In this document: positions 2,031-28,855 of the stretch, piece by piece
How positions within the stretch are numbered: the first letter of the stretch is position 1
How the letters are laid out: every line of letters begins with the position of its first letter
IMG/VR virus record: IMGVR_UViG_3300007541_000018
Span: 1 to 64,000 of that record
Reading direction: 5' to 3' (one strand)
DNA: 64,000 nt
Origin: a virus
Program-made: the position numbers and the translations under genes
The notes under the pieces: generated by a model
Seen by the model: the letters and a program-made list of their open reading frames with translations, nothing else
Told to the model about the DNA's origin: nothing
Databases searched by the model: none

Positions 2031-2046
2031 GTCTGTATAGTAGTCT

Positions 2047-3554: not shown

Positions 3555-3571
3555 ATCGGCTATAATAGGAT

Positions 3572-3916
3572 GTGGCAAGCAAAAATTATATTGACAATGA
3601 TAGATTTGAAGTATGCATTCGCCTTTACCTAGAGGGAGACGAATCCGTATCCGAAGAGCTATTCGGAATGTTTAACCTTCTTATTGAAAATGTGATGGGC
3701 GCGTTTGGATTTGATGTTGACAAAGAAGATGCAGTTCAGGAATGTTTTTTACTAATAATAAAGGTTCTGAAAAACTTTAACCCTGAGAATGGAAGTGCCT
3801 TCAACTTCTTTACAACTGTTATATTAAATAATTTGAAGCTAATATACACTAAACATAAAAAGTACGCTGAGAAGATTAAGAACTATGAGGATCTTAAATC
3901 TTCTCAGCGTAACTAG
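3572..3916 (+). CDS. T4 gp55-like late sigma factor, short form
   Basis: 114 residues, one of only two plus-strand genes. The core (about residues 50-100: DAVQECFLLIIKVLKNFNPE, then the FNFF and LKLIYTKHKKY segments) matches sigma region 2 as found in T4 gp55, which directs host RNA polymerase to late TATAAATA promoters. T4 gp55 is 185 residues and ends in a sliding-clamp-binding tail (SLDFLYE). Here the chain ends shortly after region 2 (YEDLKSSQRN) and no such tail is seen. The GTG at 3572 is the only possible start upstream of the core, because an in-frame stop lies just before it. The gene diverges from the polymerase operon and its end abuts the convergent gene at 3917. Confidence 0.75.
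   Translation: MASKNYIDNDRFEVCIRLYLEGDESVSEELFGMFNLLIENVMGAFGFDVDKEDAVQECFLLIIKVLKNFNPENGSAFNFFTTVILNNLKLIYTKHKKYAEKIKNYEDLKSSQRN
3863..3911 (-). terminator. Terminator hairpin inside the 3' end of the sigma gene
   Basis: A perfect 15-base-pair inverted repeat: 3863-3877 (TACGCTGAGAAGATT) against 3897-3911, with a 19-base loop whose ends can also pair. Read on the minus strand the stem is followed by CTTTTTATGTTT, a terminator-type U tract, so it should stop transcripts coming leftward from the 3917-4472 genes. On the plus strand the following bases are not U-rich. All of it lies within the last 18 codons of the sigma gene. Confidence 0.7.
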
Positions 3917-10080: not shown

Positions 10081-10257
10081 TCAGGTGGTTTTTATACGAA
10101 GTATTCTTCTGCGAGCCATTAGCAAGCACTGTTGAGATACGGCTGTTTCAGGTACAACTATTGTTTGTTTTGGTTTTAGCCACACCCTACGGGGACCATT
10201 CTGGTAGTTAAACAGTATTTCAAATGATTGCAGGCTATCGTTTGTAATGGACTTCAT
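10081..10257 (-). CDS. Small protein of unknown function upstream of sheath
   Basis: 58 residues, translated by eye from the minus strand: starts MKSITNDSLQSFEILFNY, then a GPRRVWLKP segment, a VVPETAVSQ segment and a basic end (MARRRILRIKTT). A clear AGGAG site lies five bases upstream of the ATG at 10257, and the stop is 12 bases before the sheath start. The position, ribosome-binding site and mixed strand-forming composition make a real gene likely. It is probably a small virion or tail-assembly protein; no function is recognised. Confidence 0.7.
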   Translation of the reverse strand: MKSITNDSLQSFEILFNYQNGPRRVWLKPKQTIVVPETAVSQQCLLMARRRILRIKTT

Positions 10258-10309: not shown

Positions 10310-13300
10310 TTATGGTATAGCTGGTCCGCCTAGGCCTCCCCCTCCGCCTGGGCTTGCCCCTCCGCCTGGGCTTGCCCCTCCGCCTGGGCTTGCCCCTCCG
10401 CCTGGGCTTGCCCCTCCGCCTGGGCTTGCCCCTCCGCCTGGACCATCAGGCTCGGTGAGACCTAATCCTCCTTGGACTGAGTAATCAGGCTCGGTGATTT
10501 CATCGTAACTCACATAGTCTGAGGCTGGGTCCCACCAGTAGTTCTTTGAGGTGGTTACTTCCCCGGAGACTGCTGCGGCGAGTGACCAAGCCTCAGTAGA
10601 ACCAGACTCTTGAGATATTCTGTTATTCTCTATGGTTACGGCAGATAAAGTATAGTCCTGAGAAGGCCATGCGCCGACTCTTATTGATGCATCGGTTCCA
10701 CCTCTTAACCAGTTACCCGACACACTCACTCCGCTAACATCACCAAGCCTAGGTCTTATTCTGACGCAGTTCTGCATTCTATACCCAGAGGTTCCGCTAG
10801 GAGTGGAGATATAATTATCCTTTATCTCGATGCCTGAGCCTGAGTTGACAACTACACCGTAGTAATTTCCATCCTCAGCTAAACCTATTTGGTGTATGTA
10901 ATTGTTTGAAACAACTGCATTACCCTTAATGTTTATACCATTACCTCTACTGTTAATGACTTCACAGTTTCTAACAGTAATATTTTTACCAGTGATGGCT
11001 GCTCTATAAGATCCAGCGATTCTTCCATCTTCTATGACAATTCCTGAGTAGTCTTGGTCAGACTCTATTCCGTGAATCAATGTCTTTCTATCGAATATGT
11101 GGAAGTTTCTTAAGGTTACATCGTTAGCTCTTATCTTTACAGTGGTACTAGCCTTGAAACCCTCGTAGACTCCTGGCTGAGTAATAACATTGTTAATAAC
11201 CGAAGGATATTTTTCAGAAAGATCTCTTCTTACTGTAGGTGAAACCTCTTTTGGTATGAACAACGATCTAGATAATCCATCCCCATTAGGTCTAACCCTT
11301 GCTGGAAATAAGGTATCCTTATGAGTTTTAAACATTTCAGTTAAGAATGAGCTTCCTAGTTCACCTTCTCGTAAGTATCCTTGAGACTGATCATAGGCAG
11401 GGTCACCTTCAACTAAGCCTTCATCCATACTAATTGGTCTAGAGGCTGTTTGATAACCAAAGTAAAGCGTCTCTGGAGATCCGTAATCGCGTATCAGAGA
11501 ATCTATATCTCCACTAAACGCTAAGACGCTCATCGCTTCTGCGGCTGCCCATCGAGTATCCAAAGCTTTGTTTTGTTGATCAGCAGTAGTATCTACAGGG
11601 TTATTTGAATCTATACTTTCAAACTCTCCAGGAAGGGATGGTCTAGTTCTATCAAAAACTAGTTGCTCTACGACAGCTTGAGATAATGTTAAATCTCTAA
11701 CCCATCCAATAGGATCACCATGCCAAGTTCCTCCCTCAGATACTGTAATGTTACTAACCTCTACAGGAGTTACACCTGTAAGAGAAGTATCTAAATCATA
11801 CCTGTTATCATGGGTGTTTAACCAGAACAATCTTCTAGTTAAGTTGGTTGATGTAGCGGTAGAGATATCGCTTCCACTAGTAAGACCTCTAAGCCTTCTC
11901 ATTATTATTCCAGCGGATCTACTGATGTTATCATCAACATTGTAGAGTACGCCAGTAGAAGCTACAGCACCTAACATATCAACACAGTGTTGTGCTACAC
12001 TAACCATAAGATCCTGTTTATCAGAATCAGAAGTATGTAGTAATAGAGCAGCCTCATTGAATACTACTTGAGCATCACTTATAGTCCTTGGCATATTCTT
12101 ATAAGGTCTTGCACCCATGACCTCACCTCTAGGAATACCATAGTACCAAGGTCTACTCAAAAGCTGTCTAGCTCTCTGGACTCTAGTTCCAGAACCTGTT
12201 AGTAAGATATCTTCAGACTCTAATACATCAAGAGACTGGAAGTTATCTAAACTTAGTTCACTAACACTATAGTTTATTTTAGAACCAGGAGATCCGTAAG
12301 GACTGGGGCGTAATGATTCCTCAGGGATGCTAGTTACGCAAGTGAGAATAGACATGTCTCTTACGAAAATGTTTGGAGAGTTATGGCCTAAAACATCAGT
12401 CTCATAGGAAGTACTACTTCTAGTTGATACTAAACTATCGTGATGAACGAGTGTGACTGGATAAGTTACTGCTCCAGTAGCATCATAGTTCTCAACTCGA
12501 TCATCGAATGATTGGGCTGCATCAGGAACAGGGTTAAGAACACTACCGTTTCTCCCATCGGCAGGTGCAGGGGACACTGCTGTTACAGTAACATCAACCT
12601 CTCCATCAGGAACTAGGACCCAAGGGCTTCCATCAGCGAAAGATCCGTGTACTACGGCGTCACCAAACTCCCAAGAGATACCTGTTTCGTCATCAGTTAC
12701 AGTATCACTTACAGACCATTGGAGTTCAGTTACAGTTACAGTTAAGATGCCACTATCCTTTCCGTAAACTGTCATACCATCTTTTATGGCTTTCGCTCTT
12801 ACTACGAAATAGTACTCACCGTTTCCATTTAGGATGGCTGCGTTGGCGCTGGTATCTGAAGTCGTAGTTAATAAAGTATAATCAGCCTTGACCACACCAT
12901 ACTCTTTATCAAAAGAAGGATGTGATCCTTGGAACAAGTTAGTTGTTCCATACTCTCCAGACATTGCATACCCAAATAAAGCATTGTCTAGTCTATAAAC
13001 TTCATACTCTACTGAAGAATGCCCATCTGTAGTCACAGCATCCCAGCTAAGATCTATTGAAGTCTCTCCTGCTGAGTAAGAAGTTGTTGGAGATACAGCC
13101 TCTAATGAAGCTAGAGCGTAGAGAGCTTGGGCGTCAGTAGTTTCATTACCATCATACGCCCCAACGAAAGAAGTGTTGTTGAAATGAGGGTTGTGAGTAT
13201 ACCATTGCATCATAGGGGTGTGGTCATACTCACCTGTTAACCATAGCCATTGCATAGCCGCAGCTATGTAGGAGTTCTCCTCATCTGCGTAGCATGAGCC

Positions 13301-14911
13301 TGCTCCATTAGGAATGCACATATGACCAAAAGGAGAATGAGTTAATCCCCAACAATCCTTAACAGCCCTACCTGCCTGAGGAAGGTATAGGAATTGATCA
13401 ACCTCAGGTGGTAATGTAACTCCAAGTAGTTTTGCAAACCATAGCTTTATTGCCATATCGCCTTGACGGAACTCTCTGGCTGCACGCATGTCAGCTAATG
13501 TCAGTCCTGTAGGGCCTGCACTTACCCCCAACCCTAAGGTATTCCTGTAATAGCTTGCTGTTGCATGGGTGGCTTCAACATCACGAAGACCTAATGTTCC
13601 TTGGTTAGTTTTACCATAACTTATTATGTTAGGGAAACTACTTTTTAGTGTCTGGCAGACTGTAGCCTTGTTATAAAGAGGCTCGAATGTAGGGTTATAA
13701 ATACCATAAGTTTCTATCCCTAAATCCTCCATTCGATCATAAATAGCTGCTATTGCAAACAGCTTCATGGCAGATAGGTTTCTTTTCAAAGATACTGAAT
13801 TTACTCCATGAGAAGCCCATCTTCTTTTTGATACTCCTTGAGCCCAATCACCAGTACCGAATGCGGGTACGCTGCATACAAATTTAAATACATCCCAAAG
13901 CTGTTCTTTGGTTTCTCTATCAAAACCAGTACCGCTAACTGATGCGAATTTAAGAGCAGTGTTATAGAGAATGTCGATTATGTACTCAAATTGATTATGA
14001 TCAGTTAAGGAATTCTGTCGAGTGTCAATAGGTATCCCAGTTATAACCCTTCGATCTACTCTTGTACCTAGATTATCTTCGCTGGATAGATACTCATCAC
14101 AGGAAGTTAATAAAGGTTCGGCGTCTACTTCCTCCGGGTCAACGCATCTTTCCCTAATTATCTCACTAAAAACTTCCTCCCTGTAGACTTCACTATCTGG
14201 TCCAAGAACTAAATCATTATCAAAAGGTACATTAGGAACAACCTCTCCCATCTTGTCTTTGAATTTTTGCCACGCACTTACATCATAGGTTCCATCTGTT
14301 TTACCAAAAGGATACGCTCTATAAGTAGGGTAAGTGGAACAGTGTAAAGTAAATCCTTCACTTCCTCTTTCCAAAGTAGCAGGTAATCCTATACCACTAA
14401 ATGCAAAACCTACTACTAAAGTATCCCCATCCTGTAGAGTAACTGTGTAGCTCGCAAGATCATCTGAGCTATCTTCATAAGAAAACTCTGAAAAACTAGT
14501 CTCTGTACCATCATCACTTTCATCAATAGAAGTGGAGCCAAGGTCTGTAGTATACGATTGCCTAACAATAGGTGGCAGGACCGCCTCAAAGTCCCACCCA
14601 GAGGGAATTTCATTGTTATCATTTGTGAAAGGTAGCTGATTGAATGGTGCTCGTATAACCTTTACAAGCAATGCATGACCTAAGTCACCAGCGTTATCCA
14701 TTCTAAAAGCATCTTTAGTGCCCTTTAAGTTATGATGAAGATTAGGGGTGTTGTAGCTAATAGTGTAGCTTCCTGGGCTTACCCAGCCTCCTGTGGCTTT
14801 ATCAGAACCGCTAGATGCTCTCCAGATTCTTTGTTGAATATTAGATCTAGTTACTTTGATACCTAACTCATTAAATTGAGTTACTTCTTGATAAGGTATA
14901 AGGTCGCTCAT
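10310..14911 (-). CDS. Large tail fibre/adhesin with beta-helix and Gly-Pro-rich C-terminus
   Basis: 1533 residues from the ATG at 14911, directly after the giant gene; an upstream GTG at 14938 would overlap that gene. Residues about 250-600 contain a helical, tryptophan-rich region rather like alpha/alpha-toroid carbohydrate-active proteins. Residues 604-730 look like a fibronectin-III-type domain (IDLSWDAV...YEVYRL...YYFVVRAKA). A WxFG...GSPWVLVP module follows, which is shared with the giant protein. Residues 1244-1457 are a right-handed parallel beta-helix (repeats such as GIVIEDGRIAGS, NITVRNCEVINS, GNAVVSNNYIH). The C-terminus is a GGGASP repeat. Host recognition or surface-glycan binding is inferred from architecture and location; no catalytic residues were assigned. 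Confidence 0.85.
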   Translation of the reverse strand: MSDLIPYQEVTQFNELGIKVTRSNIQQRIWRASSGSDKATGGWVSPGSYTISYNTPNLHHNLKGTKDAFRMDNAGDLGHALLVKVIRAPFNQLPFTNDNNEIPSGWDFEAVLPPIVRQSYTTDLGSTSIDESDDGTETSFSEFSYEDSSDDLASYTVTLQDGDTLVVGFAFSGIGLPATLERGSEGFTLHCSTYPTYRAYPFGKTDGTYDVSAWQKFKDKMGEVVPNVPFDNDLVLGPDSEVYREEVFSEIIRERCVDPEEVDAEPLLTSCDEYLSSEDNLGTRVDRRVITGIPIDTRQNSLTDHNQFEYIIDILYNTALKFASVSGTGFDRETKEQLWDVFKFVCSVPAFGTGDWAQGVSKRRWASHGVNSVSLKRNLSAMKLFAIAAIYDRMEDLGIETYGIYNPTFEPLYNKATVCQTLKSSFPNIISYGKTNQGTLGLRDVEATHATASYYRNTLGLGVSAGPTGLTLADMRAAREFRQGDMAIKLWFAKLLGVTLPPEVDQFLYLPQAGRAVKDCWGLTHSPFGHMCIPNGAGSCYADEENSYIAAAMQWLWLTGEYDHTPMMQWYTHNPHFNNTSFVGAYDGNETTDAQALYALASLEAVSPTTSYSAGETSIDLSWDAVTTDGHSSVEYEVYRLDNALFGYAMSGEYGTTNLFQGSHPSFDKEYGVVKADYTLLTTTSDTSANAAILNGNGEYYFVVRAKAIKDGMTVYGKDSGILTVTVTELQWSVSDTVTDDETGISWEFGDAVVHGSFADGSPWVLVPDGEVDVTVTAVSPAPADGRNGSVLNPVPDAAQSFDDRVENYDATGAVTYPVTLVHHDSLVSTRSSTSYETDVLGHNSPNIFVRDMSILTCVTSIPEESLRPSPYGSPGSKINYSVSELSLDNFQSLDVLESEDILLTGSGTRVQRARQLLSRPWYYGIPRGEVMGARPYKNMPRTISDAQVVFNEAALLLHTSDSDKQDLMVSVAQHCVDMLGAVASTGVLYNVDDNISRSAGIIMRRLRGLTSGSDISTATSTNLTRRLFWLNTHDNRYDLDTSLTGVTPVEVSNITVSEGGTWHGDPIGWVRDLTLSQAVVEQLVFDRTRPSLPGEFESIDSNNPVDTTADQQNKALDTRWAAAEAMSVLAFSGDIDSLIRDYGSPETLYFGYQTASRPISMDEGLVEGDPAYDQSQGYLREGELGSSFLTEMFKTHKDTLFPARVRPNGDGLSRSLFIPKEVSPTVRRDLSEKYPSVINNVITQPGVYEGFKASTTVKIRANDVTLRNFHIFDRKTLIHGIESDQDYSGIVIEDGRIAGSYRAAITGKNITVRNCEVINSRGNGINIKGNAVVSNNYIHQIGLAEDGNYYGVVVNSGSGIEIKDNYISTPSGTSGYRMQNCVRIRPRLGDVSGVSVSGNWLRGGTDASIRVGAWPSQDYTLSAVTIENNRISQESGSTEAWSLAAAVSGEVTTSKNYWWDPASDYVSYDEITEPDYSVQGGLGLTEPDGPGGGASPGGGASPGGGASPGGGASPGGGASPGGGGGLGGPAIP
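10341..10440 (-). repeat. 18-base tandem repeat encoding GGGASP
   Basis: Five exact 18-base units (10341-10430) plus a partial sixth unit, in frame at the C-terminus of the fibre gene. Each unit encodes the six residues GGGASP. Being exact at the DNA level, the array can change length without breaking the frame. It is followed by a short GGLGGPAIP end. Confidence 0.9.
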
Positions 14912-14918
14912 GGTATTA

Positions 14919-17900
14919 TTATTGAGTATCACATTCACATCTAAGCTCAGATGTAGGGTTCTCCACTAATAGATAGGGTTTTGTAACGCCATCCTCATCA
15001 ACTAAAGTACCGTCAATACGCTGATTGTTTGGATAGTTTGAATATCTTTTAAGGATGCTCCATGGATATCCTGGGATAACCTGCCCTCCTTTTTGTAAGA
15101 AATCTTCTACATCTAGAACTGGGTTAGTGGTTCCACCTATCGTGGTCCCGTCAGTTAATCTGATCTTTCTACAGGAAAGACCGTTATCATTAGACCACTT
15201 GTTAGTGTAGTCACTAACAACATCTATCACTGCATAATTATCTGTTATACATGCAGACATGTCTGCATAACCAGCAGCCTCAGTATAACCTAGAGACCTA
15301 TAGTAATCGCAAGAATAGTAGGGAGCGTTTGAATCAACAGCAGAGGGGTCGTATGCATGAATGACCTGATGAGGAATATTTATGTTCTGTCCATCATTCA
15401 AGTTATACATTCCATAGTTAGTTGCCGAGTCTATTTGATTACCTGCAACCCAGTGAATAGTTGGGTTAAATCCAAGAACACCTGAGGTAGCACTACTAGA
15501 ATAACCCGTATCGTTAGAGCAGTTAGTGGCGTTGTAGAGAGGTAATGAGATGCTTTCCCAAGTCTCTGTTGGAGAATTCTCTTCAGCACACGCTCTTAGC
15601 TGCCAGAAATACCTTGTAACGCCTCCTGATGTTCTGCTTGTTTTACTAAATTTGCTACTCTTTGTTATAAAGTTATAGCTTCCAGTTCCTCTAAAGTAGC
15701 ATCCACTTAAGTAAATATTATGCCATATATTACTTCCACCAGTGGTAATTAAGAACTGACTGGTTCCAGTGCCCTTAGCTCTAACGGTATCGCTACCACT
15801 AGGTGCTAAGTAACCATCTATTGTTGGACCGTCATCATTTAAGAAAGATGCTGGGTTTATAAATCCTCTTCTATCTATGAGTAGTTTACTGCCTGGGATG
15901 TTAGCAGTTCCTGAGTCAGACCATTCTGGGCTGCCTGCGCCAGCGAAGGTACATCTTTCAAGGATTATATCAGTAAGCTGTTTCCTATCCTGCTGGAATG
16001 TGTCAGCATGGGGTGCCTTGCTAGGATAGGCTGCGAACCATTGATCATTGGTGGCACCGCACTGAACATGTCTAGTAGGAGTACATCTTTCTACAGCATG
16101 TACAAACCCATTAAAGGTTCTTGTAGCTGGCACACAATCAAATAGCTCAGGTCTATCTCCTGGGTTACAGGAAGCTCCTGCGCGGACACTTCCTGCTGGG
16201 CCTATCCAACATTCAGACATCTTCCAGTCTCTAGTGTTTGGGTAAGTTCCTACAGGTATTATGTTTATAGAATCACCTACATACCAGTCTATGTTAAGCC
16301 TTCTTGCGTTGTAAAGGGGAACATTTATTGTCTTCGATCTGCAACCTCTAAAGGTACACCATTCAAAACTTACTTCTTGAGGATGAACCCCGTTATAACC
16401 GTTAATTATGTAAGAGTTTCCTCCATGTTCTGTAGAAGATCCACCTACATTATCACCGTTATTATTCTGGCTTAGTTGGCTGTCAAGTCCAGAGAATACT
16501 ACCCCATCAGCAAACTTCTCATACCAGTATAGCTGTCCTATGAATAAGCAGTCAACAAAGTTCAGAGGGTTATTAGTTTTTATCTGTAGTATACCGTTAC
16601 TAGCAGCGTTAGCTACATCGTAGTTAGTTCCAGAGAACACTACTCCAGATATAGTAAGACCTGTAACAGGAACCTCAGTGCAGTTTGGAAGTGCTCCGCA
16701 ATCACCAGGGTCTACAAAATAGTAGGGGTCAGTGGTTATTGCAGATATATCCATAGCGGAAGTATAAAGCCTATGCCCAGTATTTTTACCTGTTATTTGA
16801 GCAGTAGGGTCTGCACTATCATCTATGGCAGGTGGGTATAGGTTACCGTCACCGACATCTCCAGCCCCTTGAGTCCAAGAATTGTTGTTTGGGTCAGTAG
16901 ATGGAGGAGATGGGAAAGTTCCAGTAAGAACATCCGATAGGTTTGCGTAAGGAATTGTAGGGAAGAAACCTTCAGCGTATCTGTAAGCGGAAGCTTCACA
17001 GTCCCAACCGTCTCCTGTTGCGAAGTCCCCAGGGGCGCTAAGAGAGAAGTCTGGGTAACGGTACCTGTACTTGTCAAAGTAATAGGCGGGGGCCTGTCTG
17101 CCCCAACCCTCATCATCAGAACCAGTCCAGAGGTTGCCTGTATTAGGCTCTCTTTTCTCATACCCTATTGATTGTCCGTTTGCATCGGTCAGGTAGGGTG
17201 GGTCGTAGTTCAGCAATGCTGCTCTATCAATGTAGTCTAAGAATGGTTTGTGACCAAACTGATCTACTAAACCCATCTCTCTTATCGCTAGTGCCATTCC
17301 GTAGCCAAATCTAGCAAGCTGAGATTTGTACTTTGGAACATAATGCTCATTTGTAAATCCAGAAGAGGATTCTTGTTGCCAAGCTGGGAATCCATAAATG
17401 TTCCATTCAGGCATTCCTATTTGAGTTGTGCTGTAGTTTACACCTGGAACTTGAATATCCAGCTTACATAAGGTTCCATTAGCGTAGTTAAGGTTTAGAT
17501 CTGTACCACAAACCAAACCAGGGTCACTAGAATTAGCAGGAGTACTTTCCCCATCTTCTAAGTAGAGGGTAGTGTTAACCATATAAGTATTACAGACTCC
17601 ACTAGTAGTAGGATCAGTCCTACAGTTAGGACTTTCTGGTGGGCAAGTACCGTCTTGCTCACAAACAAACCAGTTAATGTAGTCTGGTACATGGAAGGTG
17701 TTAAGGTTCTCACTAAACCTACCTGCATTCTCTACTAGATCAGTTAGATCTTCGTTGAACATGATTCTCTTGAACCATATTGGGAAGTAACGACCTTGCT
17801 TATGACCACCTTCAGGAACCCAGTAAGCACCTTCCTTGAACCTTTCATCAAGGTCTATACCTACCTGGAGAAGCCAGTAAAGAATAGGCTTCTTGGTATC

Positions 17901-20900
17901 TAGAGGAACATCTAGGTTAAGCAGCACAGCAAGATGACCTACGATGTTGAACAGACCACCTCCAGTAGTTCCGTATAGAGTTGTTTGTCTCACTGGACCA
18001 AACTGCTGCATCCTCCAGTCGAAGTTATCATTAGCAACTATGTTGTTACACCACATATTACTATTCTTCTGGTGGACAGGGGCATATAGCTTTCCAGTAG
18101 AGTCAGCACCTGGGTAGTTATGAGAAGGATTTATCTGATACCAGACTTCTGCATTACCGTCAGAGCCGTCTTGATGTGTAGGCTTTCTCTCAACAAAACT
18201 AGCAAAGTTGGGGGCAAAGCTTAGTATTGGAAGGTTCTTAAGCTTTCCGTAATCTATAGCAGAAGTGTGGTAAGGAGAGGTCTTGCTGTTACTAAAAGGT
18301 CCTGGGCGGAACCATCCACCATCAGGATTTTCCCAAGGATTAGTCACAGGATTCTGGACAGGGTTGCGATGAGTAGCGAACCAGTTGGTTATGGTTTCGT
18401 TTACAGCCTTTATCATCTCATAAGTACCATCTCCAGAAACATCTACCCCAGGCTTATTTGGGAAGTAGAGTTGGTGAACATTGACATGGTTACCGTTCTC
18501 ATCCAAGATTGGGAACGATTGCCCTTGCGAGTTAGGAGAGGTGCTCCAATATTTTTCTCTCCAAGCCCAAGGCCAAGAACCATCACTGAAAGGCCCAGCA
18601 GCACCGACCTGAACAACTCCAGTACCAGCGTTAGTAGCTCTCCACTTATGAGCGTGCATGAACCATATGAATCCATCTGCACCTGCTTCTAGACAGGAAA
18701 GAACTAAGCTATTTACTTGATCGTAGCTAGGAGTTTCGTTATGGTAGTACTCAAGTGCTCCGTAGTAGGGATTTACACTTTGGTCGTTAACAGAAGATAC
18801 AAATACTGGACTACCTTCTAGTGTTGGGTAGACAGGTTTACCGTTAGGGAATTGAGGTGTAGTAGACCATTCTTTAATTCTATGGACACCGCTAACAACC
18901 CACTTAGCATCATCAAGAACCTTTGGAGTTGAGAAGTAAGGGTTGTCATATAATTCTGGTGGGTCTACACTGCTCGCTGTTACAGCCCCAGTAGGCTTAG
19001 TACAGTGTGGGTAGTAGTCGAACAGGAACCCATCGAACTCAGGGATCTGCGCCACTGCTGAGAAGAATGAAAGCTGATCTTCTTGAACAGTTCCGTCATC
19101 CCATACATGACCAGCGCGTGCCCTTGGATCCAATCCAAACCATCCAGCGATAGATACGCCCTTAGAGAAGAAATAGTAAAGCTTCTTATCAGGGTACTGC
19201 TGTTTGAACTGCTCTGCTCTTTGCTTGATATCATCGTAGCCTGCTCCGTAAGTGTAATATGTTTGGTAGATATCTATAGTCCAACCGTTACCATCAGCAG
19301 GCTCGTAATCATCACCAGAGTCTAGTACATATACTGGAGCTTGACCAGCGGATATAGTTGCACTAGCCTCAAAGACAGTTGTTTTTCCATAAGGAGCCGC
19401 GCCAGCAACACCTCCGTTAGATAGACGATCTATAACATAAACCTTATCGCCTATAGAGTAAGTTTTAGTAGAATCATACTCCTCGTAATGGCCGTACCAA
19501 TCACCGTTTAGTTCAGCCTCATGACCTAACATCCAGAAGTCTACACTTTCAGGAGTACCGTCTCCATCAGGATCGACTACTGTAAAGTTCATAGGCCAAT
19601 CGTCACCTAGATTGCCTCCTCCTGGCTTAAACGCTTCTCCGTATTGGTTTACAAGACCATACTGTCCTACAAAGCGAAGCCCCTTATCTAAAAGGGATTG
19701 AATTTCAGATTGAGTATAAGGTTGATCAAAGTTGGTTGGGAACTTAGAACGGACCAACATGTCGATTCCTAAGTCCTTGTTCTCTTGAGCGATATCTACT
19801 AGCCTGTTAGGAAGTGTAGTGTCGTTTAGATACTTTTGTGTTGGGGCGTACCAGCTTCCGATTCTTCCAGGAAGAAGGTTAGCGTAGTAATCTCCAAACT
19901 GTCTACCGCCTCCATTAAAATCCGCAGGAGCCTGATCTAAACAAGTGAGAGGTTGAATAGTCTTAAGTCGTCCACCAGACTCAGACTTATTTGAATTTAG
20001 ATAAGGAGCATTTATACTGTAAGTCTGTGGGTTTGCTGAAAGACTGTACATTCCTAGACTGACTGGGCCAGTCCCATCATCGCGGAATACTTCATATTTT
20101 TCGTCAGTTCCTATGTTAGGAATCCAAGGCTTTTGAGACTCACACCATGAACTATGCAAAGTATCCCCTGGTTGAAGTGTTATGGGATTGGTTTGAGATA
20201 CAGGGTTTGCACCGCCACCAGTGTTAGAATAAGGTGCTGAAGGCCAAGCTGCATTTAAATTGTGATCGTAAGTGCCATCCATGTAAAGGGTAGTCTCCCA
20301 ACCTTCTAGCCAACCATGTCCTCTTCTAGCTGAGTTGGCTACATCGTAGAAGAACTCCCATCCACTAACAACAGACCAGTCAGTAGAGAATTCATCAGGA
20401 GTTCCTACAGTAGCGTCTATTCTACCTTGACCGTATTTGTCATAGCCTGCATAGGTTTCAGGATTAATCATAGATCCGTTAATGTAACCCCCTAACTCAG
20501 GTCTGTACTCTGGTTTAGGATATATGTCTATAACATTAACAGGACCTACAACCCACCAATCGCCTGTAACATAGCGACCAGCTTCGTAGTCTCCATCGAA
20601 GTACCAAGTAACTCCCTCGTCAGTTGTGATGGAGTTTACCATCTGGCCTCCTCCTGGGCCTTGACCACCAGTACCACCACCAGTACCACCACCAGTACCA
20701 CCACCAGTGCCTCCAGTAGCTCCATCATTGACAACGAATGTGAACTCAGTGTTGCTTCCTAAATCAGAATCAACAGAAGAATCTGCTACAAGCTTAAAGG
20801 TACTGGATAGATCTCCTTGGTTTCCTGTAGCACTTGTAATACCTACTGTAAACTCCCAATCCTGTTCAGCAGCATCAAGACTTATATCAAAGGAATTGGC

Positions 20901-23900
20901 TCCATCTAGGGTTATACCTACAAGAGATAGTCGAGTCTCTTCTGCTGGTATGTTTGCACTTACAGTAAGGGTCGTAGCACTTTGAAGAGGTAAGTTGTAT
21001 CGACCTGTTACAGTAATCTCCTTGTAAGTAGCATCCTCAATAGTTATCTCTTGGCTTCCATTAAAGTTTGCCTTTGGAACAGGTGCTGTAGTTACAATAC
21101 CGTTATCAGCCATGGGACCTGCGTAGAAGTTTGCAGACACATCAGCCGCGTCAAGAGCAGCAGCATAAACTGATACCCTGAATATATCTCCTAACCAATG
21201 TCTGGTAACAGTGTCAGTAGTATCCTTTTCGTTGGCGATTGTGAGAGCGTAATCACCGAAGTTATTAGAGAGGACTCTGGCGTCTTGGAAATTAGTTCTT
21301 TGGAATGGGTCGTCAAGATTTTGGATGTAGAGATTATTCTCAGTACCTCCATTATCGTTGTAAGTGTTGACCCAAATCCTGACACCGCTGGCGGTAGAAC
21401 TTTCTACTGATATTACAAAGTGCTGTAGCTCATCTTCAACAATGTTAAGGGAAGTGTTGGTGTTAGAGTAGGAATAGTTACCACCTCTCCAATTAAACTC
21501 ACCTCCTCGATTCATTCCAAACATAAAGTTTGTTAAACCACCACCTACTTGAGTAGGATTAGAGGGGTTAGACCACGACACTAATCTAGCAGGACCTCCG
21601 AGTGTTGTATCAGAGCATCTAGCCCAAATCTCAATTGTGTAAGATCCTCCAGAGAGTTGGTCGATGAGGAGGTCAGCACCTGCGCTTAGTGTAAATCTAG
21701 ACTCATTGTTTATCTTTGTGAATGTTGCGGCAGGGGTAGTAACCTCAGTAGTGCTACCAAAATCTTTCTTTAGAATGAGACTAGATACTAGATCTGTAAT
21801 TTCGTTACTAGCGTTCATACCGCTAAAGATCCAGTCAGCTTTAAGATCCGTGCTTCTCTTTGAAGTGTCAGGGGGATCAAATACACACCCCGTAGCAGGA
21901 AGACCTACATCTTGACCATAAGCAGTTACGAAATCATTGTAGGCATCAGGAAGATCAGGGTTCCAAGAAAGATTCCAATCAACATGAGCCATCTCTCCAA
22001 CCAATCCTCCAAGGTTTGCTTGGTAATACCCTAAAGTACCTACAGCGTTAGTAGATCCATTAGGAACCTCATTAACCATTATGAAACCAAAAGCCTTGGT
22101 AGCGTTATCGTAGCTGCTAGGAACTACAGAAACATAATCATTACAGTCTGCCCCAGCACCAGTGAGATAATTTGATATTGAGCCTGACTGTAGTGTCATA
22201 CTTACAACATCATTAAATTCACACCCTCTGAAAGCCGTGGCAACTCCCTGTTTACCCCATTTTAGGAATCTTTCATCTCCAGTTAGTCTATAAGAAGTTT
22301 TTAGAGATGTGAAGTTTCTAGCATTCCATAGGGGAGAGGTTGATCCTCCAGTAACACCTACGAAGTCCCATCCTATATGATCCACGGAGGGGATTCTTTG
22401 ACCGTTTACTTTTATAGAGTTTATAACCTGACCAGCGGGGAGCGTATTCTCTAAACCGTGTGCGGAGGTGTTTACGAATAGATCAGGATCATCATAGTCA
22501 TACGCAGAAAGTGCGGGGACAGTATACTCTCTAGCCTTATCTACATATTCCCATTGTCTAAGAGTTGGGTAGGCAACTAAATCTCTCAGTCTAGTTTCAA
22601 GAACAGTAAGATTGTTTGGATCAGTATCATTAAGAGCTTGGGCTACAGAGAACACACCATTGTTCCAAAAAGCTCTCATGTAGTCCTGATAGCCACCGAA
22701 ATCAGCACCGTTAATACCCTTTCTTCTTTGATATTCAGTGATGAAATCAGCTTTAGGCAAGTCTATTAGTTGCTTAAAGCTACTTAATGTACAATCTAAA
22801 TAAGCAGCCTTTCCAAGTTCAGCTACTGGGTACTGTGAAGTTAGTCCTGTATTCTGGCCTAAACTACCATCATTGTAAGGAGTATTTCTTCCAGGACTGA
22901 GGGTTTTCCAACAAGCTTCTGAGAAAACATCTGCCCATGCGGCATAGTCTACCTTATCAGAACCCTTTAATAATCTTCCTAAAAGACCTACGGACTTAAT
23001 ACCCCATCCAGATATTCTAGAACCTTGCTGTGAGAAGTATTGCTGTGCTGGATTACCAGTTACGCCATACAATGTCCAAGTTCCGTTTTGGACGGCTCCA
23101 TAAGCGTTAGTAGCATTATACCAGTAGGAGTTCTTCTGCTGATAGTTAACGCCATTAAGAGTGTAAGTGCCTAAGGTATCATAGTTTGAGAAAGCAGTTT
23201 GGTAGTAGTTTCCGTACTGCTTAGTAAGCCACTTCCCTGAACCTAAGTTAGCGTTCCAAACTAACCCGTCAAGATGGAAAATAGATCTGATGGTCCATGA
23301 GTCTTTGTTAGTATGCCACTTAGACCCAGGCTTCTGGCTGAACTCACCTTCACAAATCCACTGGTTCTGGGTGGTGTTTTGTGCCCTTACAGTGTTATAA
23401 ATACTTTGTCTACTAGAGGGCTTAGTGCTCCACATTCTGTTAGTAGGACAAAGAGGTACAAATTTATTTACATCATTTACAAATGGACCGTTGAAGTGAG
23501 GCCAGTGAGTGTTCTCACCATTGTTGTTACCTATTGCAAAAGGTAGTATTGGCTCAGAGGTTCCCTCAAAAATCTGAGTGGCTTTAGCTATATCATGAAT
23601 TGAAACAGGCTTACCTGTAGGAGAGGTCATGGTTAGCCTGTTTCTCATCATTTGCATCTTCGCAATGGCCCAGGATCTTTCAATCTCAGCGTCATTTAAT
23701 TCTATACCATCTTCGGCTCTGATAGCAAAACCTCCAGGAGCACCCTCGTCTTGCTCTCCGTAAGGTCTGTAGAAGGTATGTACTTTTGGATCAGAAGAGT
23801 TAGTTAGATTAGAGGATATGAAAGAAAGCCCATCGCTTCCAAATCCGAATGGGTTTTGTCTTCCATTAGTAGATCTAGCATTGATCTTGTAGTGTCTAGC

Positions 23901-26900
23901 TATTGCTACCGACCTTGCTTTTAGAGCATCAAACCCAGAGGAGTCGAAGCTACTGTAAATAGATTGTAGGTTTGAATTTGATACAGACGATGGTCTGCTA
24001 GTTTCTACTTGATCCCAATCAGGTATGTAATCTCTAGTGCCACCCCAACCTCTAATTGCGAAGTAGTTGTTTCCGAAAGGCTTTCCTGTAACAGCGTCTC
24101 TATAAAGAGGTAGAGAAGCAGCGTAACCACCGAATCTGTTTACCCAAAGAGCGTGAGCTTTTTGGGTTTCAGACCCTTGAGAGATCGCAACCTTTACTGC
24201 AAAGCAACTTCTTCTTGGAAGTAAGTGCAGTGAGTAGTCACTGGGAGCTAGAACAGAAGGGTTGTAGTTACCAGGGTTAGAGGTTTCAATTGGTCTTACT
24301 AAGTAACCATAAGTATCATCGGTGAATGTTTCTGAAGGAATTTTTTGAATAATATTGTTAACCCCGTTAACAAACTCAGTTCCTTCGTGCATAATTAGAC
24401 CAGCGGGGAGGTTTAGCTTGATGTCATAGAAGAACACATCCCCGTTAACCTCAGGGTGGTCTGCGTAACGATCTCCAATAGTGGGATCATAAATGTCGTT
24501 GTGAATTATAAACTCTACCTGTGCAACATCTAAGTCGGCTCTTTGAGTTACATAAGCGGTTACACCTAAAAGTTTAGGAGAGTAACCTACAGGCTCTTGC
24601 CCAGCAGGCCATACATCAAACTGTGTAAATAGTTGGCGCTCTTTTATGTAACTACCATCCCTTACAACTTCAACTTCTGTCCATGTAGAAAGAGGAGGAG
24701 TGTTTACACCTATAACAGAGTTTACAGAACCATCACCATTATCAAGGTGTATGGTTAAGTAAGCACTATCTAGATTAACATCTGTTATAAAGTTTTGAGA
24801 TGGGCTACCTTGTGCTATTCTCTCAAGAACAGACTCGTTATCAGAGGAGGTAGCAGTAAGGCTATAGTTAGCATAGTCTACTGTGTAAGTTGGATCAGCA
24901 GGACCTACAACTTGTACAGTGTCTACCAGATCACCAACATAGCTTACTGGGAAAACATCTGCAACTGTACCGTCAATCATGAAGGAGGGTAAGTTTGCCT
25001 CATCTACAGGATCAATAGGTACTGTAGTTTGAACTAAGTAGTAAGAAGGATTAGTCTGAATGTAACCACTAAGGGGAGAAGTTACCTTATCAGTGACATA
25101 GTAATTGTCGTTAACTGAAGTCCACTTTAGGATTGAAGGAGGACCTTGAGTACTACCTACAGTAGTATAATCCACCGACACGGTTTTAGCTCCAGTGTGT
25201 GCAGGATCTATGGTAACTAAATCGTTACCAGTTCCAGGGTATGCTGTACTAAAAGCGGTAGGACCGCTATTTACAATTCTTATACTTACATCGCCTTGTG
25301 TACCAGCCTCAATGGTAATAGAGGAAGTTACAGTTGTGGAGTGAGCAGGGATGACAACTGTGTTAGGGAATACAACACTTCCAGCAGCACCAGCAGCAAC
25401 ACTTGCGATTATAGGTACAGTAGTGTCGGCAGATACACCTAGACCTAAATCAAATGTTAGATCTACAGTAACATCTTGATCATAAGGAACAAGAACTGAG
25501 GTGGGGTTTATGGTCCAAGTAAGATTAGTAGCAACATCATCATCAATTAGTTTGAAGATGTGGTTGTGCTGAGTTGGGTCAGATGGGGTTGGACCTGCAA
25601 TCACTGCGTTGTTATCTGTAGAACTAGCATCAACTATAGCGTATCTTACTACAGAACCAGCGTTAGCTGTTGTATCATCACTTACATAAACATTGTAGGT
25701 AAAGTTACTCTGACCAGCGGTCAGGCTAATATCTATAGAAGATACAAATACTCCAGAGCTAAGGCTGACCCTTTGGTCAGTATTACCAGCAACGGATTCT
25801 ATAGTTACATATCCTCCTACAGGCACGGCAGGAGTAATAGTTCCTGAAAGCTCAAAGGTTTCACCGTCCCATTCGTTAGTTGTAATTAGATTGGTAGGAC
25901 CATAATTAGATAGATCGAAAGTGCTTTCTACAGCAGGAACAGCACCATCAACAGCCACAGTATAAAGAGACTGGCCTGCAAGCATTCTTCCATAAGCTGC
26001 GTCAGCTACATCTACACCTGCATTAATATCAAACGACCCTGTAGTAGCTGTTACAGCAACATCGTAAGTAGTAGTTATAGACAATGACCCTGCGGGTAAA
26101 ACTACAGATGCAGGGGCAGTAATGTCTCCACCTAGAGTACCTACAAAGTTATTGTAGAAAAGGTTTACCTGAATATCTTGGCTGGATATTCTCGATGCTG
26201 TGAACTCAATGGTAGCGGTATCACCTGCTGCTGGGTCGCTAGTAGTGTTGCTTCCAAATGATAAGAATATTAGTTGCTCATCATCTAGAATTTCTAGATC
26301 GAAAGTAGTAGGATCAAGTACAGGAGTTATAGTTAGAGGAGTCCCAGGTAGCTCGTTTACAGAATCAATGCTAAAGCTTACAGTAACATCTTGGTTTGTA
26401 ATGTCTTCGTTACCTACGGTAACTGGAATAATTACAGAGCTAGTTCCTTGAAGAATCTGCCCAGTGTATGAGGCATCGAGCCTTCCTGCGGCGGTGTTCT
26501 CAGGGACTATAACAATATCCACTGTCTCAGGAAGAAGAGTGTCCGATACAACTTCAATATCTACTGTCTCGTTACCATACTCAGTAGCAGTAGTGCCTAC
26601 CTCAGCAAAGCTAAAGGTTACTTGGTTCGCATCGCCGTCAATGCTTATATGAATGATCTCGTCTGGATCAGTAGTAGCATTTCCAGTAGATACAACAGCC
26701 TCTAGATAAAGGTTAACATTAGGATATGCGGTATCAAGTATATTAAAGGAAGTACTTACAGGGCTAGTGCTATACGCAGGAATAGTTACGGTGTTGATAG
26801 GAGAGTAATCTCTGTTCAAAACAGCAGTAGTGGTTTGTCCTGTAGAGGTTGTTGATACAGGGCTGATTGTAACCTCTACATCTTCTTTGTAGAAATTACT

Positions 26901-28097
26901 AGTGTTTACAACTATAGTTACAGTATCACCATCAACCTGTTGATTGCTCCCGTTATATGCTTGGTCTGAGGCAATGCTAATTAAGGGCTGCTGATCATCA
27001 CTTATAAGTGATAGGTTGCGTACATCAGTAGAGCCTACCTGACCATTAAAGGTTTGGTTTACCGAAACAAAATCGGTAATGGTTATTTGAATTGTGGTAG
27101 GAGTCTCCTCTGTATCAGTGTCTTTTATGTAAATAGGAATGAATCCCTGTGTAGCACCTGCTGGGAAGTTTCCGTTAAAAGTTAGTGGTAATGGAGTTTG
27201 GAGTTGATCGTCTGCGAATAGTCTAGGATCTGTCTGGCTAATAGAGAAGGAAACCTTTCCTGGGCCTGGGAGAGGGTTGTTAAATACTACCTTAGCTCCA
27301 AGAAGTCCTTGGTTCCACTCCTCGGCTGTTACTATTTGAGGTGATTCATGGTTTACAATTAAAGTAGAACCTACACCAGTTACTTGGTAAGACTGAGCTA
27401 TGTTTCCACCTGTAGCATTTCCTGTAGAAATATTAGCAGTGATGGTGACAATACCTGGAGCAGCTAAAATGTTAGGAATCAGTTCAATACTTTTGACAGT
27501 ATCAGGATCCTCCCCATTAGCCTCTGCGTTTACTGTGCCTACAAAATTAATATCTGTTATGGTGAAGGTGTAGTTCTGGTCCGATTGCCCAGGAGGATAG
27601 TTATCAGTTACAGTAATATCAAGACCCACATCTTCAGAGAAGGCTCTATCTAGAACCACCTCAAAGACCCCAGGCTCGTCTGCCGTAGCGGTATTAGTGG
27701 TGTTAGGACCTAAGGATACTACAGGCTCAATGTCATCATCAACTACAGTTACAGTAAGCTCCTCATCTTCAATTATTGTGGGGAAGCCTCCTTGACCTAT
27801 GACAAAACTAACTATTTCTAGTGAAATCTGGGCGTCACCAATAGGTTCTGAATCATCAGTGAGAACAACAGGGATAGTGAACGAGGTGGACCCTGCTGGA
27901 ACAACTACTGTTATGTTGGCACTGTCAGAATCGCCACCTCCTGTGATGATATCACCATTTGCGTTAGTGAAGCTGACTCTTTCGTCAAGAGAAGTTACAC
28001 TAACAGTAATAACTGCCTGCTCAGGAATAGCAGGGGTGATGACGCCAGAGACGGCATAGCTACCGTCTTCCCATTCAAATAGATTTACATTGGGCAT
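14919..28097 (-). CDS. Giant multidomain tail fibre/adhesin (4392 aa)
   Basis: One uninterrupted frame of 4392 residues, about a fifth of the window. Residues 1-985 are a series of about eight Calx-beta-type units (signatures such as VPAGSTSFTIPVVLTDDSE and repeated TVVDDD ends). Residues 985-2100 are mixed and tryptophan-rich, unassigned. A LamG/concanavalin-like domain lies at about 2100-2320 (SYTIEIWARC...HFVISVES). Another Calx-beta-like unit follows at 2340-2458, then a GGGT-rich linker (2459-2484). A WYFDGDYEAGRY...WWVVGP module (2491-2550) is shared with the next gene. A TIM-barrel-like stretch (FDGFLFDYYPH; GADGFIWF) is near 2900-3080, and a beta-helix at about 3770-4190. It is presumably a very long adhesive fibre that binds or trims surface glycans; this is inference. 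Confidence 0.88.
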   Translation of the reverse strand: MPNVNLFEWEDGSYAVSGVITPAIPEQAVITVSVTSLDERVSFTNANGDIITGGGDSDSANITVVVPAGSTSFTIPVVLTDDSEPIGDAQISLEIVSFVIGQGGFPTIIEDEELTVTVVDDDIEPVVSLGPNTTNTATADEPGVFEVVLDRAFSEDVGLDITVTDNYPPGQSDQNYTFTITDINFVGTVNAEANGEDPDTVKSIELIPNILAAPGIVTITANISTGNATGGNIAQSYQVTGVGSTLIVNHESPQIVTAEEWNQGLLGAKVVFNNPLPGPGKVSFSISQTDPRLFADDQLQTPLPLTFNGNFPAGATQGFIPIYIKDTDTEETPTTIQITITDFVSVNQTFNGQVGSTDVRNLSLISDDQQPLISIASDQAYNGSNQQVDGDTVTIVVNTSNFYKEDVEVTISPVSTTSTGQTTTAVLNRDYSPINTVTIPAYSTSPVSTSFNILDTAYPNVNLYLEAVVSTGNATTDPDEIIHISIDGDANQVTFSFAEVGTTATEYGNETVDIEVVSDTLLPETVDIVIVPENTAAGRLDASYTGQILQGTSSVIIPVTVGNEDITNQDVTVSFSIDSVNELPGTPLTITPVLDPTTFDLEILDDEQLIFLSFGSNTTSDPAAGDTATIEFTASRISSQDIQVNLFYNNFVGTLGGDITAPASVVLPAGSLSITTTYDVAVTATTGSFDINAGVDVADAAYGRMLAGQSLYTVAVDGAVPAVESTFDLSNYGPTNLITTNEWDGETFELSGTITPAVPVGGYVTIESVAGNTDQRVSLSSGVFVSSIDISLTAGQSNFTYNVYVSDDTTANAGSVVRYAIVDASSTDNNAVIAGPTPSDPTQHNHIFKLIDDDVATNLTWTINPTSVLVPYDQDVTVDLTFDLGLGVSADTTVPIIASVAAGAAGSVVFPNTVVIPAHSTTVTSSITIEAGTQGDVSIRIVNSGPTAFSTAYPGTGNDLVTIDPAHTGAKTVSVDYTTVGSTQGPPSILKWTSVNDNYYVTDKVTSPLSGYIQTNPSYYLVQTTVPIDPVDEANLPSFMIDGTVADVFPVSYVGDLVDTVQVVGPADPTYTVDYANYSLTATSSDNESVLERIAQGSPSQNFITDVNLDSAYLTIHLDNGDGSVNSVIGVNTPPLSTWTEVEVVRDGSYIKERQLFTQFDVWPAGQEPVGYSPKLLGVTAYVTQRADLDVAQVEFIIHNDIYDPTIGDRYADHPEVNGDVFFYDIKLNLPAGLIMHEGTEFVNGVNNIIQKIPSETFTDDTYGYLVRPIETSNPGNYNPSVLAPSDYSLHLLPRRSCFAVKVAISQGSETQKAHALWVNRFGGYAASLPLYRDAVTGKPFGNNYFAIRGWGGTRDYIPDWDQVETSRPSSVSNSNLQSIYSSFDSSGFDALKARSVAIARHYKINARSTNGRQNPFGFGSDGLSFISSNLTNSSDPKVHTFYRPYGEQDEGAPGGFAIRAEDGIELNDAEIERSWAIAKMQMMRNRLTMTSPTGKPVSIHDIAKATQIFEGTSEPILPFAIGNNNGENTHWPHFNGPFVNDVNKFVPLCPTNRMWSTKPSSRQSIYNTVRAQNTTQNQWICEGEFSQKPGSKWHTNKDSWTIRSIFHLDGLVWNANLGSGKWLTKQYGNYYQTAFSNYDTLGTYTLNGVNYQQKNSYWYNATNAYGAVQNGTWTLYGVTGNPAQQYFSQQGSRISGWGIKSVGLLGRLLKGSDKVDYAAWADVFSEACWKTLSPGRNTPYNDGSLGQNTGLTSQYPVAELGKAAYLDCTLSSFKQLIDLPKADFITEYQRRKGINGADFGGYQDYMRAFWNNGVFSVAQALNDTDPNNLTVLETRLRDLVAYPTLRQWEYVDKAREYTVPALSAYDYDDPDLFVNTSAHGLENTLPAGQVINSIKVNGQRIPSVDHIGWDFVGVTGGSTSPLWNARNFTSLKTSYRLTGDERFLKWGKQGVATAFRGCEFNDVVSMTLQSGSISNYLTGAGADCNDYVSVVPSSYDNATKAFGFIMVNEVPNGSTNAVGTLGYYQANLGGLVGEMAHVDWNLSWNPDLPDAYNDFVTAYGQDVGLPATGCVFDPPDTSKRSTDLKADWIFSGMNASNEITDLVSSLILKKDFGSTTEVTTPAATFTKINNESRFTLSAGADLLIDQLSGGSYTIEIWARCSDTTLGGPARLVSWSNPSNPTQVGGGLTNFMFGMNRGGEFNWRGGNYSYSNTNTSLNIVEDELQHFVISVESSTASGVRIWVNTYNDNGGTENNLYIQNLDDPFQRTNFQDARVLSNNFGDYALTIANEKDTTDTVTRHWLGDIFRVSVYAAALDAADVSANFYAGPMADNGIVTTAPVPKANFNGSQEITIEDATYKEITVTGRYNLPLQSATTLTVSANIPAEETRLSLVGITLDGANSFDISLDAAEQDWEFTVGITSATGNQGDLSSTFKLVADSSVDSDLGSNTEFTFVVNDGATGGTGGGTGGGTGGGTGGQGPGGGQMVNSITTDEGVTWYFDGDYEAGRYVTGDWWVVGPVNVIDIYPKPEYRPELGGYINGSMINPETYAGYDKYGQGRIDATVGTPDEFSTDWSVVSGWEFFYDVANSARRGHGWLEGWETTLYMDGTYDHNLNAAWPSAPYSNTGGGANPVSQTNPITLQPGDTLHSSWCESQKPWIPNIGTDEKYEVFRDDGTGPVSLGMYSLSANPQTYSINAPYLNSNKSESGGRLKTIQPLTCLDQAPADFNGGGRQFGDYYANLLPGRIGSWYAPTQKYLNDTTLPNRLVDIAQENKDLGIDMLVRSKFPTNFDQPYTQSEIQSLLDKGLRFVGQYGLVNQYGEAFKPGGGNLGDDWPMNFTVVDPDGDGTPESVDFWMLGHEAELNGDWYGHYEEYDSTKTYSIGDKVYVIDRLSNGGVAGAAPYGKTTVFEASATISAGQAPVYVLDSGDDYEPADGNGWTIDIYQTYYTYGAGYDDIKQRAEQFKQQYPDKKLYYFFSKGVSIAGWFGLDPRARAGHVWDDGTVQEDQLSFFSAVAQIPEFDGFLFDYYPHCTKPTGAVTASSVDPPELYDNPYFSTPKVLDDAKWVVSGVHRIKEWSTTPQFPNGKPVYPTLEGSPVFVSSVNDQSVNPYYGALEYYHNETPSYDQVNSLVLSCLEAGADGFIWFMHAHKWRATNAGTGVVQVGAAGPFSDGSWPWAWREKYWSTSPNSQGQSFPILDENGNHVNVHQLYFPNKPGVDVSGDGTYEMIKAVNETITNWFATHRNPVQNPVTNPWENPDGGWFRPGPFSNSKTSPYHTSAIDYGKLKNLPILSFAPNFASFVERKPTHQDGSDGNAEVWYQINPSHNYPGADSTGKLYAPVHQKNSNMWCNNIVANDNFDWRMQQFGPVRQTTLYGTTGGGLFNIVGHLAVLLNLDVPLDTKKPILYWLLQVGIDLDERFKEGAYWVPEGGHKQGRYFPIWFKRIMFNEDLTDLVENAGRFSENLNTFHVPDYINWFVCEQDGTCPPESPNCRTDPTTSGVCNTYMVNTTLYLEDGESTPANSSDPGLVCGTDLNLNYANGTLCKLDIQVPGVNYSTTQIGMPEWNIYGFPAWQQESSSGFTNEHYVPKYKSQLARFGYGMALAIREMGLVDQFGHKPFLDYIDRAALLNYDPPYLTDANGQSIGYEKREPNTGNLWTGSDDEGWGRQAPAYYFDKYRYRYPDFSLSAPGDFATGDGWDCEASAYRYAEGFFPTIPYANLSDVLTGTFPSPPSTDPNNNSWTQGAGDVGDGNLYPPAIDDSADPTAQITGKNTGHRLYTSAMDISAITTDPYYFVDPGDCGALPNCTEVPVTGLTISGVVFSGTNYDVANAASNGILQIKTNNPLNFVDCLFIGQLYWYEKFADGVVFSGLDSQLSQNNNGDNVGGSSTEHGGNSYIINGYNGVHPQEVSFEWCTFRGCRSKTINVPLYNARRLNIDWYVGDSINIIPVGTYPNTRDWKMSECWIGPAGSVRAGASCNPGDRPELFDCVPATRTFNGFVHAVERCTPTRHVQCGATNDQWFAAYPSKAPHADTFQQDRKQLTDIILERCTFAGAGSPEWSDSGTANIPGSKLLIDRRGFINPASFLNDDGPTIDGYLAPSGSDTVRAKGTGTSQFLITTGGSNIWHNIYLSGCYFRGTGSYNFITKSSKFSKTSRTSGGVTRYFWQLRACAEENSPTETWESISLPLYNATNCSNDTGYSSSATSGVLGFNPTIHWVAGNQIDSATNYGMYNLNDGQNINIPHQVIHAYDPSAVDSNAPYYSCDYYRSLGYTEAAGYADMSACITDNYAVIDVVSDYTNKWSNDNGLSCRKIRLTDGTTIGGTTNPVLDVEDFLQKGGQVIPGYPWSILKRYSNYPNNQRIDGTLVDEDGVTKPYLLVENPTSELRCECDTQ
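20664..20711 (-). repeat. 12-base tandem repeat encoding a Gly-Thr linker
   Basis: Four 12-base units (the fourth differs at one base) in frame in the giant fibre gene. They encode GGTG-type repeats between the Calx-beta/LamG half and the glycan-binding-like half. Probably a flexible hinge whose length can vary. Confidence 0.85.
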
Positions 28098-28117: not shown

Positions 28118-28855
28118 TTAGTCTTTTATTTTTACATCAGAGTATAGTTTTAGTATCTTTCCTGTATTTGTCACTAAGAATTTTGGTTGAGGAATATAAG
28201 CCTCAATATTAATTGTGAAGTCTTTTCTTATTAACCTATCTTCCCTATCCCTAGCCTCCACCTGACCATCATCTGTTTCTTGAGTTAGGAAAGCTTTACA
28301 TACCTTGCTTTGTGGAATCTTTAAGATTAGATCAGGATTAAACTTTGATCTTAATGAAGCAGATAGCTGGTCGATATCGGACACAAATTTCGACCAAATA
28401 CTTAAACTATATGACATTACTACGGGGACATCTGCAAGATGAACCACCCGTTCGGCTCTTTGCTCCTTATCATTCCAGGCTTTCGCGTATACAAGATTTT
28501 GAGATGTTCTTCTTTTCCTAGAATCTTCCTCAACCCCTGTCTGGTATACGGTTGAGTAAGGAAGGACTATGTTATTTTCTTGAAACTTTTTGGCAACAAG
28601 TCTGTCCTGACGACCGTGATGAATTTTAACAGACACTAACTCATTTTGATCATTAATATAGTACATGTCCATCTGTGACAGTAAGGCTCTTAAGATATCC
28701 TTATAGAAATCTTGCTTATAGTTACTGTCCTTGGTTGATAGATCAACTATTGTGCTCATTAAAGTTCTAGAAGACCTTCCAGGAGTATCATCTAGATCTC
28801 CTGCGATCTCATTAATGTAACCTTTAAGATCACCAAAATATAAATACTCAGACAT
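28118..28855 (-). CDS. gp15: Tail sheath stabiliser/tail completion protein (T4 gp15-like)
   Basis: 245 residues (T4 gp15 is 272). The central PVVMSYSLSIWSKFVSDIDQ segment followed by LRSKFNPDLIL corresponds to the MIYELSIFTRYEDDMFQIVE...PYFQPHF region of gp15, and the FTINIEAYIPQP end fits the same family. The protein caps the head-proximal end of the tail and is the joining surface for the neck. It follows the gp14-like gene with an 8-base overlap, so the neck genes are in the T4 order 13-14-15. Twenty bases separate its stop from the start of the giant fibre gene. Confidence 0.8.
   Translation of the reverse strand: MSEYLYFGDLKGYINEIAGDLDDTPGRSSRTLMSTIVDLSTKDSNYKQDFYKDILRALLSQMDMYYINDQNELVSVKIHHGRQDRLVAKKFQENNIVLPYSTVYQTGVEEDSRKRRTSQNLVYAKAWNDKEQRAERVVHLADVPVVMSYSLSIWSKFVSDIDQLSASLRSKFNPDLILKIPQSKVCKAFLTQETDDGQVEARDREDRLIRKDFTINIEAYIPQPKFLVTNTGKILKLYSDVKIKD

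Follow-up and report, generated by a model that had tools for sequence, protein, structure and literature searches.

The giant protein encoded in the window, a stretch of 64,000 nucleotides that is part of a 67,075-base IMG/VR record, is probably a virion-borne adsorption protein of a T4-superfamily phage which recognises, and possibly degrades, polysaccharide together with a tailspike-like partner. Its gene (14919..28097, minus strand) starts with ATG and codes for 4,392 aa in one frame, as originally predicted. No report on its protein family was found in the literature. Among phage proteins, long modular fibres, beta-helix spikes and Ig-like adhesins are already familiar; unusual in the giant are its size, its combination of domains and a domain nested within a phage-only surface module. 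The proposed role as adhesin or fibre was supported by the context, namely by the late tail operon, the tailspike-type partner, the slot that holds another long tail protein in relatives and the signs of exchange at the C-terminus.

With the whole giant as query against viral contigs, nothing was retrieved via its seed patterns. Relatives were found through the sheath gene as query instead, which yielded 285 sheath relatives in IMG/VR from an uncultivated T4-superfamily lineage. Two of these loci (L003 and L004) code for full-length giant homologues in a single frame, G001 with 4,410 aa and G002 with 4,420 aa. They are 38-39% identical to the window giant, and the sheath proteins encoded next to them are 70-71% identical to the window sheath. 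G001 and G002 are 90% identical to each other. The dN/dS calculated between them is 0.156 for the giant, lower for the sheath (0.059) and somewhat higher for the partner gene (0.187). The giant is under strong purifying selection between G001 and G002 (dN/dS 0.16). Given this value and the intact full-length homologues, it is a selected gene, and the pseudogene for which the original prediction had left room is excluded. The idea of a pseudogene or assembly artefact has nothing but the unusual length in its favour and, as the gene junctions are conserved and intact homologues occur in two other contigs, its probability is practically negligible.

The giant starts 20 bp behind the gene for a gp15-like tail sheath stabiliser (28118..28855, minus strand; matched by Pfam PF16724 and weakly by phrog_227) and abuts the gene for its tailspike-like partner. 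The partner comprises 1,542 aa when read from a GTG at 14938 (10310..14938, minus strand), but 1,533 aa from an ATG at 14911 (10310..14911) are more likely since this start aligns with those of the homologues (MNILYHQVSK). An ORF of 58 aa (10081..10257, minus strand) and the gp18-like tail sheath gene (7936..10068, minus strand; identified by family matches) complete the order gp15-like gene, giant, partner, 58-aa ORF and sheath. The giant and its partner of 1,533-1,542 aa form a cassette between sheath stabiliser and sheath, with the 58-aa ORF at its downstream edge. The cassette is free of any chaperone-like extra gene, in agreement with the original prediction, and no lysis gene was recognised beside the giant in the tail operon. 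The 58-aa ORF resembles an ORF of the relatives and has no function on record.

Relatives without the cassette still keep the 58-aa ORF and the sheath. In 36 of the 65 relatives having both flanks, only 227-273 bp separate gp15 from the sheath, which is just enough room for the 58-aa ORF. In others the gaps are somewhat longer, and a few have a PAAR-like gene (phrog_281) in the same slot (9492-9758 in L044 and 5715-6620 in L081). A single gene for 1,506-1,521 aa occupies the slot in five of the 65 (L036-L038, L049 and L059). In the two of them that were tested, L036 (5242-9762) and L049 (5200-9744), this different gene matches phrog_5417, and so do two proteins from the baseplate region of the window (45346-45927 and 45949-48339). 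Five contigs (the window, L002, L003, L004 and L106) turned out to carry the partner gene, which adjoins the sheath in all of them. From these slot contents across relatives, giant and partner can be described as a cassette of two genes whose slot takes different tail genes. The slot is a defined place in the tail operon where whole host-recognition cassettes would come and go in this uncultivated T4-superfamily lineage. LR756511, which has the highest identity in the major capsid protein, lacks a sheath region in synteny within the stretch that was read.

The N-terminal fifth of the giant is a repeated shaft. A repeat test and profile matches delimited eight beta-sandwich units of ~120 aa at residues 5-980 (25158..28085, minus strand). 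With HMMs built by leaving out one unit at a time, seven of the eight units scored above all shuffles, and unit 5 was indistinguishable from shuffles. A profile built from the units retrieved the Calx-beta domains of NCX1 with E-values of 0.02-0.06 and a domain of 9xg1 with 1.4e-6. The Pfam model for Calx-beta (PF03160) matched none of the window record, G001 and G002 at E ≤ 10. The data allow the units to be called Calx-beta-like, short of membership in the Calx-beta family. Of the roughly eight Calx-beta units originally predicted, the eight repeats are hence supported but the family is not, and the long repeated shaft that was said to be missing is present in this part of the protein. No signal-peptide-like stretch was seen by eye at the N-terminus. 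Family searches recognised no domain for virion attachment at the N- or C-terminus, and the giant has no sequence in common with the remaining tail proteins of this phage, in agreement with the originally noted lack of an obvious baseplate-binding N-terminus.

A conserved central region follows at residues 985-2090 (21828..25145, minus strand), as delimited by alignment A2 and by the identity per 100 residues. Its overall identity in alignment A2 is 35%, with residues 985-1300 as the best conserved part, and it had no match in Pfam, PHROG or PDB. AlphaFold was run on residues 960-2095 with a three-row alignment and gave a mean pLDDT of 25.4, so that the model was of no use. At residues 2147-2264 (21306..21659, minus strand), a LamG_3-like domain with the concanavalin-A lectin fold was matched by Pfam PF13385 with an E-value of 5.5e-6. 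The LamG domain had been predicted, but with 27.0 bits it is marginal and lies below the Pfam gathering cut-off of 27.6. The LamG domains of two other phage proteins, from the Mycobacterium Omegavirus Redno2 and from L096, score well above the cut-off and precede the phrog_34846 module as in the giant. Between the LamG_3 match and the hinge lies another sandwich-like stretch. The glycine hinge itself (residues 2459-2485; 20643..20723, minus strand) consists of TGG/TGGG repeats; it was correctly predicted and is kept in both G001 and G002.

Behind the hinge, sequence matches identified a phrog_34846 module in two halves, the first at residues 2486-2735 (19893..20642, minus strand; DEGVTWYFD...VTGDWWVVGP) and the second, alpha-rich one at residues 3263-3735 (16893..18311, minus strand). 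The phrog_34846 profile matched collinearly, with E-values of 1.2e-10 and 6.2e-8 for the first and the second half and of 2.2e-10 for the partner. The segment directly behind the hinge is 53-56% identical over 41-47 residues to Mycobacterium Omegavirus proteins, and residues 3361-3450 match the same proteins further along. The two matched segments are spaced by 160 residues in Redno2 compared to 829 in the giant, and by 129 residues in the L096 protein compared to 740 in the giant. The extra sequence at residues ~2740-3258 (18324..19880, minus strand) does not occur between the module halves of Omegavirus gp43 or of the L096 protein. It is conserved across four contigs, among them the more distant L106, and glycine-rich linkers border it upstream in the homologues. 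Because of the widened spacing, these linkers and the conservation, it is regarded as a domain of ~500 aa inserted into the module.

The inserted domain may be a (beta/alpha)8 barrel. Its conserved motifs WMLGHE-E, DGFLFDYYP and KPVY contain acidic residues and would possibly suit a glycosidase-like barrel. The TIM-barrel-like region of the original prediction corresponds to a core that is conserved four ways, but the fold was not borne out as no family matched in Pfam, NCBIfam or PHROG searches. A second AlphaFold run on residues 2486-3685, again with a three-row alignment, reached a mean pLDDT of 26.5 and was of no use either. Since both structure predictions failed, the TIM-like and the beta-helix assignments are based on sequence signatures only. 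A CBM5/12 domain suspected by eye at residues 2875-2950 was rejected as PF02839 did not match, and no catalytic enzyme family of the CAZy type matched the giant in Pfam or NCBIfam. Judging by the matches obtained, the phrog_34846 module is found only in phages and is the only module of the giant with outside homologues. The cassette widens this family, to which no function is assigned, by a form that encloses an inserted domain and by its close linkage in the genome to a tailspike.

The C-terminal tip comprises residues 3750-4392 (14922..16850, minus strand). Four rungs of the 'CxFxG' type were found, all in the last 650 residues and none in the other 3,740, and this count was reached in none of 5,000 shuffles. 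The rungs are suggestive of a parallel beta-helix. Pfam and PHROG searches gave no beta-helix family match for the giant; the original beta-helix claim is therefore backed by the rung signature, while the true family match (PF13229) is in the neighbouring gene. The homologue in L106 ends without a recognisable counterpart of the tip. Synonymous differences between G001 and G002, determined in windows of 150 codons, were 0.04-0.44 over residues 1-3750 of the giant, 0.57-0.74 from residue 3751 to its end and over residues 1-450 of the partner, and 0.22-0.36 past partner residue 450. The sheath showed 0.14-0.47 and the gp15-like gene 0.44-0.53. The last 650 residues of the giant and the first 450 of the partner seem to form one raised block, as would be expected for an exchanged receptor-binding tip. 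The step could partly come from rate variation rather than exchange. A block spanning both genes may mean that the two adjoining ends, C-terminal in the giant and N-terminal in the partner, work together, but plain adjacency explains it equally well.

The partner contains an uninterrupted phrog_34846 module at residues 743-1000 (11939..12712, minus strand), without the insert of the giant. A right-handed beta-helix was assigned to partner residues 1300-1445 (10604..11041, minus strand) by Pfam PF13229 with an E-value of 3.9e-7, and the tail spike family phrog_2234 matched residues 1246-1468 with 3.8e-9. Profile-profile comparison of the partner with the central, C-terminal and hinge-to-barrel regions of the giant revealed the short phrog_34846 stretch as the only duplicated part. 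A GGGASP repeat closes the partner (10310-10430 of the window, minus strand) and is missing in both homologues.

Among known proteins, the Omegavirus proteins Redno2 gp43 and Halley gp45, annotated as minor tail protein or lysin A, resemble the giant in having the phrog_34846 module after LamG and in their location in a tail and lysis gene block. They differ in their size of 706 aa compared to 4,392 aa, and they have neither the sandwich shaft nor the insert between the module halves. Redno2 gp43 (L090, 4293-6413) is a LamG and phrog_34846 protein annotated as 'lysin A'. The same protein is called a minor tail protein in Halley, where lysin A is another gene, and the label in Redno2 is probably a misannotation. 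The L096 protein (1,163 aa; from an uncultivated phage contig) likewise has LamG and then the phrog_34846 module, but a different genome neighbourhood and neither inserted domain nor shaft. Beta-helix tailspikes and capsule depolymerases (phrog_2234, PF13229) share their domain with the partner and similar rung motifs with the C-terminus of the giant, which however matches none of these families and has no identified catalytic residues. Klebsiella phage RaK2, which like the phage of the window is contractile-tailed and has a gp23-type capsid, encodes a very large single-ORF virion protein as well (ORF070w; 9,981 bp, ~3,326 aa), a likeness judged from size and setting alone and not from sequence. 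Tail spikes and fibres of RaK2 were detected in the virion by MS/MS (PMC3622015). ORF098 of RaK2 was ruled out as its giant fibre, being only 1.8 kb long. Phage Ig-like adhesins (Hoc of T4 and the BACON/PKD adhesins of gut phages; PMC10385173, PMC13370021) are also modular chains of beta-sandwiches for sticking to surfaces. They have fewer domains, and the repeats of the giant are Calx-beta-like rather than Ig or BACON, with no capsid-binding domain seen.

As an adsorption protein, the giant would be a late-expressed part of the adsorption apparatus, made together with its tailspike-like partner, whose gene is the next one downstream. Its eight Calx-beta-like sandwiches in a chain would form a long shaft. 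The central region, the LamG-like lectin domain and the phrog_34846 module with its insert may bind, and perhaps cut, cell-surface polysaccharide, and the beta-helix-like C-terminal end would serve as an exchangeable host-specific tip. The partner would contribute a second phrog_34846 module and a beta-helix of the depolymerase type. We infer the presence of the giant in the virion, its attachment point (baseplate or neck), its ligand, its enzyme activity and the exchange of its tip. A more far-reaching proposal, which we consider rather doubtful, is a multi-enzyme arm in one polypeptide, whose repeat shaft carries two or three different glycan-acting modules (the central region, the barrel nested in the phrog_34846 module and the beta-helix tip) that cut a composite polysaccharide sequentially and which, with the paired depolymerase, forms one exchangeable cassette. 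Provided that the enzyme modules are active, new glycan-degrading activities would be available from the cassette, and it would point to the surface polysaccharides that the lineage targets.

Three other explanations were weighed against the adsorption protein. The order of neck gene, a gene for 188 aa, gp15 and giant would fit an appendage of the neck or collar (whisker or head-tail fibre) instead of a baseplate fibre, the more so as the baseplate cluster (~49-60 kb) and the phrog_5417 baseplate-region proteins of the window are located elsewhere. However, the slot is not specific to the neck, since it is filled by a phrog_5417 member in L036 and L049, and gene order is weak evidence for the place of assembly; this location is unlikely. 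Just as unlikely is a soluble enzyme that is freed at lysis and degrades exopolysaccharide around the burst cell, outside the virion. The homologues of the module in mycobacteriophages sit near lysis genes (lysin A, lysin B and holin; one is itself annotated as lysin A), which would be compatible with a role at lysis time, and an attachment domain was not found in the giant. Yet its gene is inside the tail operon with no recognised lysis gene alongside, it has a tailspike-like partner and its C-terminus shows apparent allele exchange.

Calx-beta-like, LamG and beta-helix domains are common among secreted bacterial enzymes. These domain types would suit a secreted polysaccharide-degrading multidomain protein of bacteria that was captured by the phage, and the original prediction had seen the giant as a secreted marine polysaccharide-degrading protein adapted as a fibre. 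Such a capture is very improbable, and it was not supported by the searches. Plasmids yielded no relative, and neither did 84,980 genomes of bacteria and archaea, in pattern-seeded scans of limited reach which distant relatives could escape; the phrog_34846 module was found only in phages, and the start of the giant does not resemble a signal peptide.

The window also contains a DNA polymerase (phrog_17; 900-3578, minus strand) in three adjacent ORFs of different frames (2547-3578, 2047-2547 and 900-2030). The same pieces and break points were found side by side by tblastn in more than 12 related loci (e.g. L005, L008, L015, L055 and L061), in some of which the first two pieces lie 270-700 bp further apart. 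The arrangement seems to be a conserved split polymerase rather than a sequencing error.
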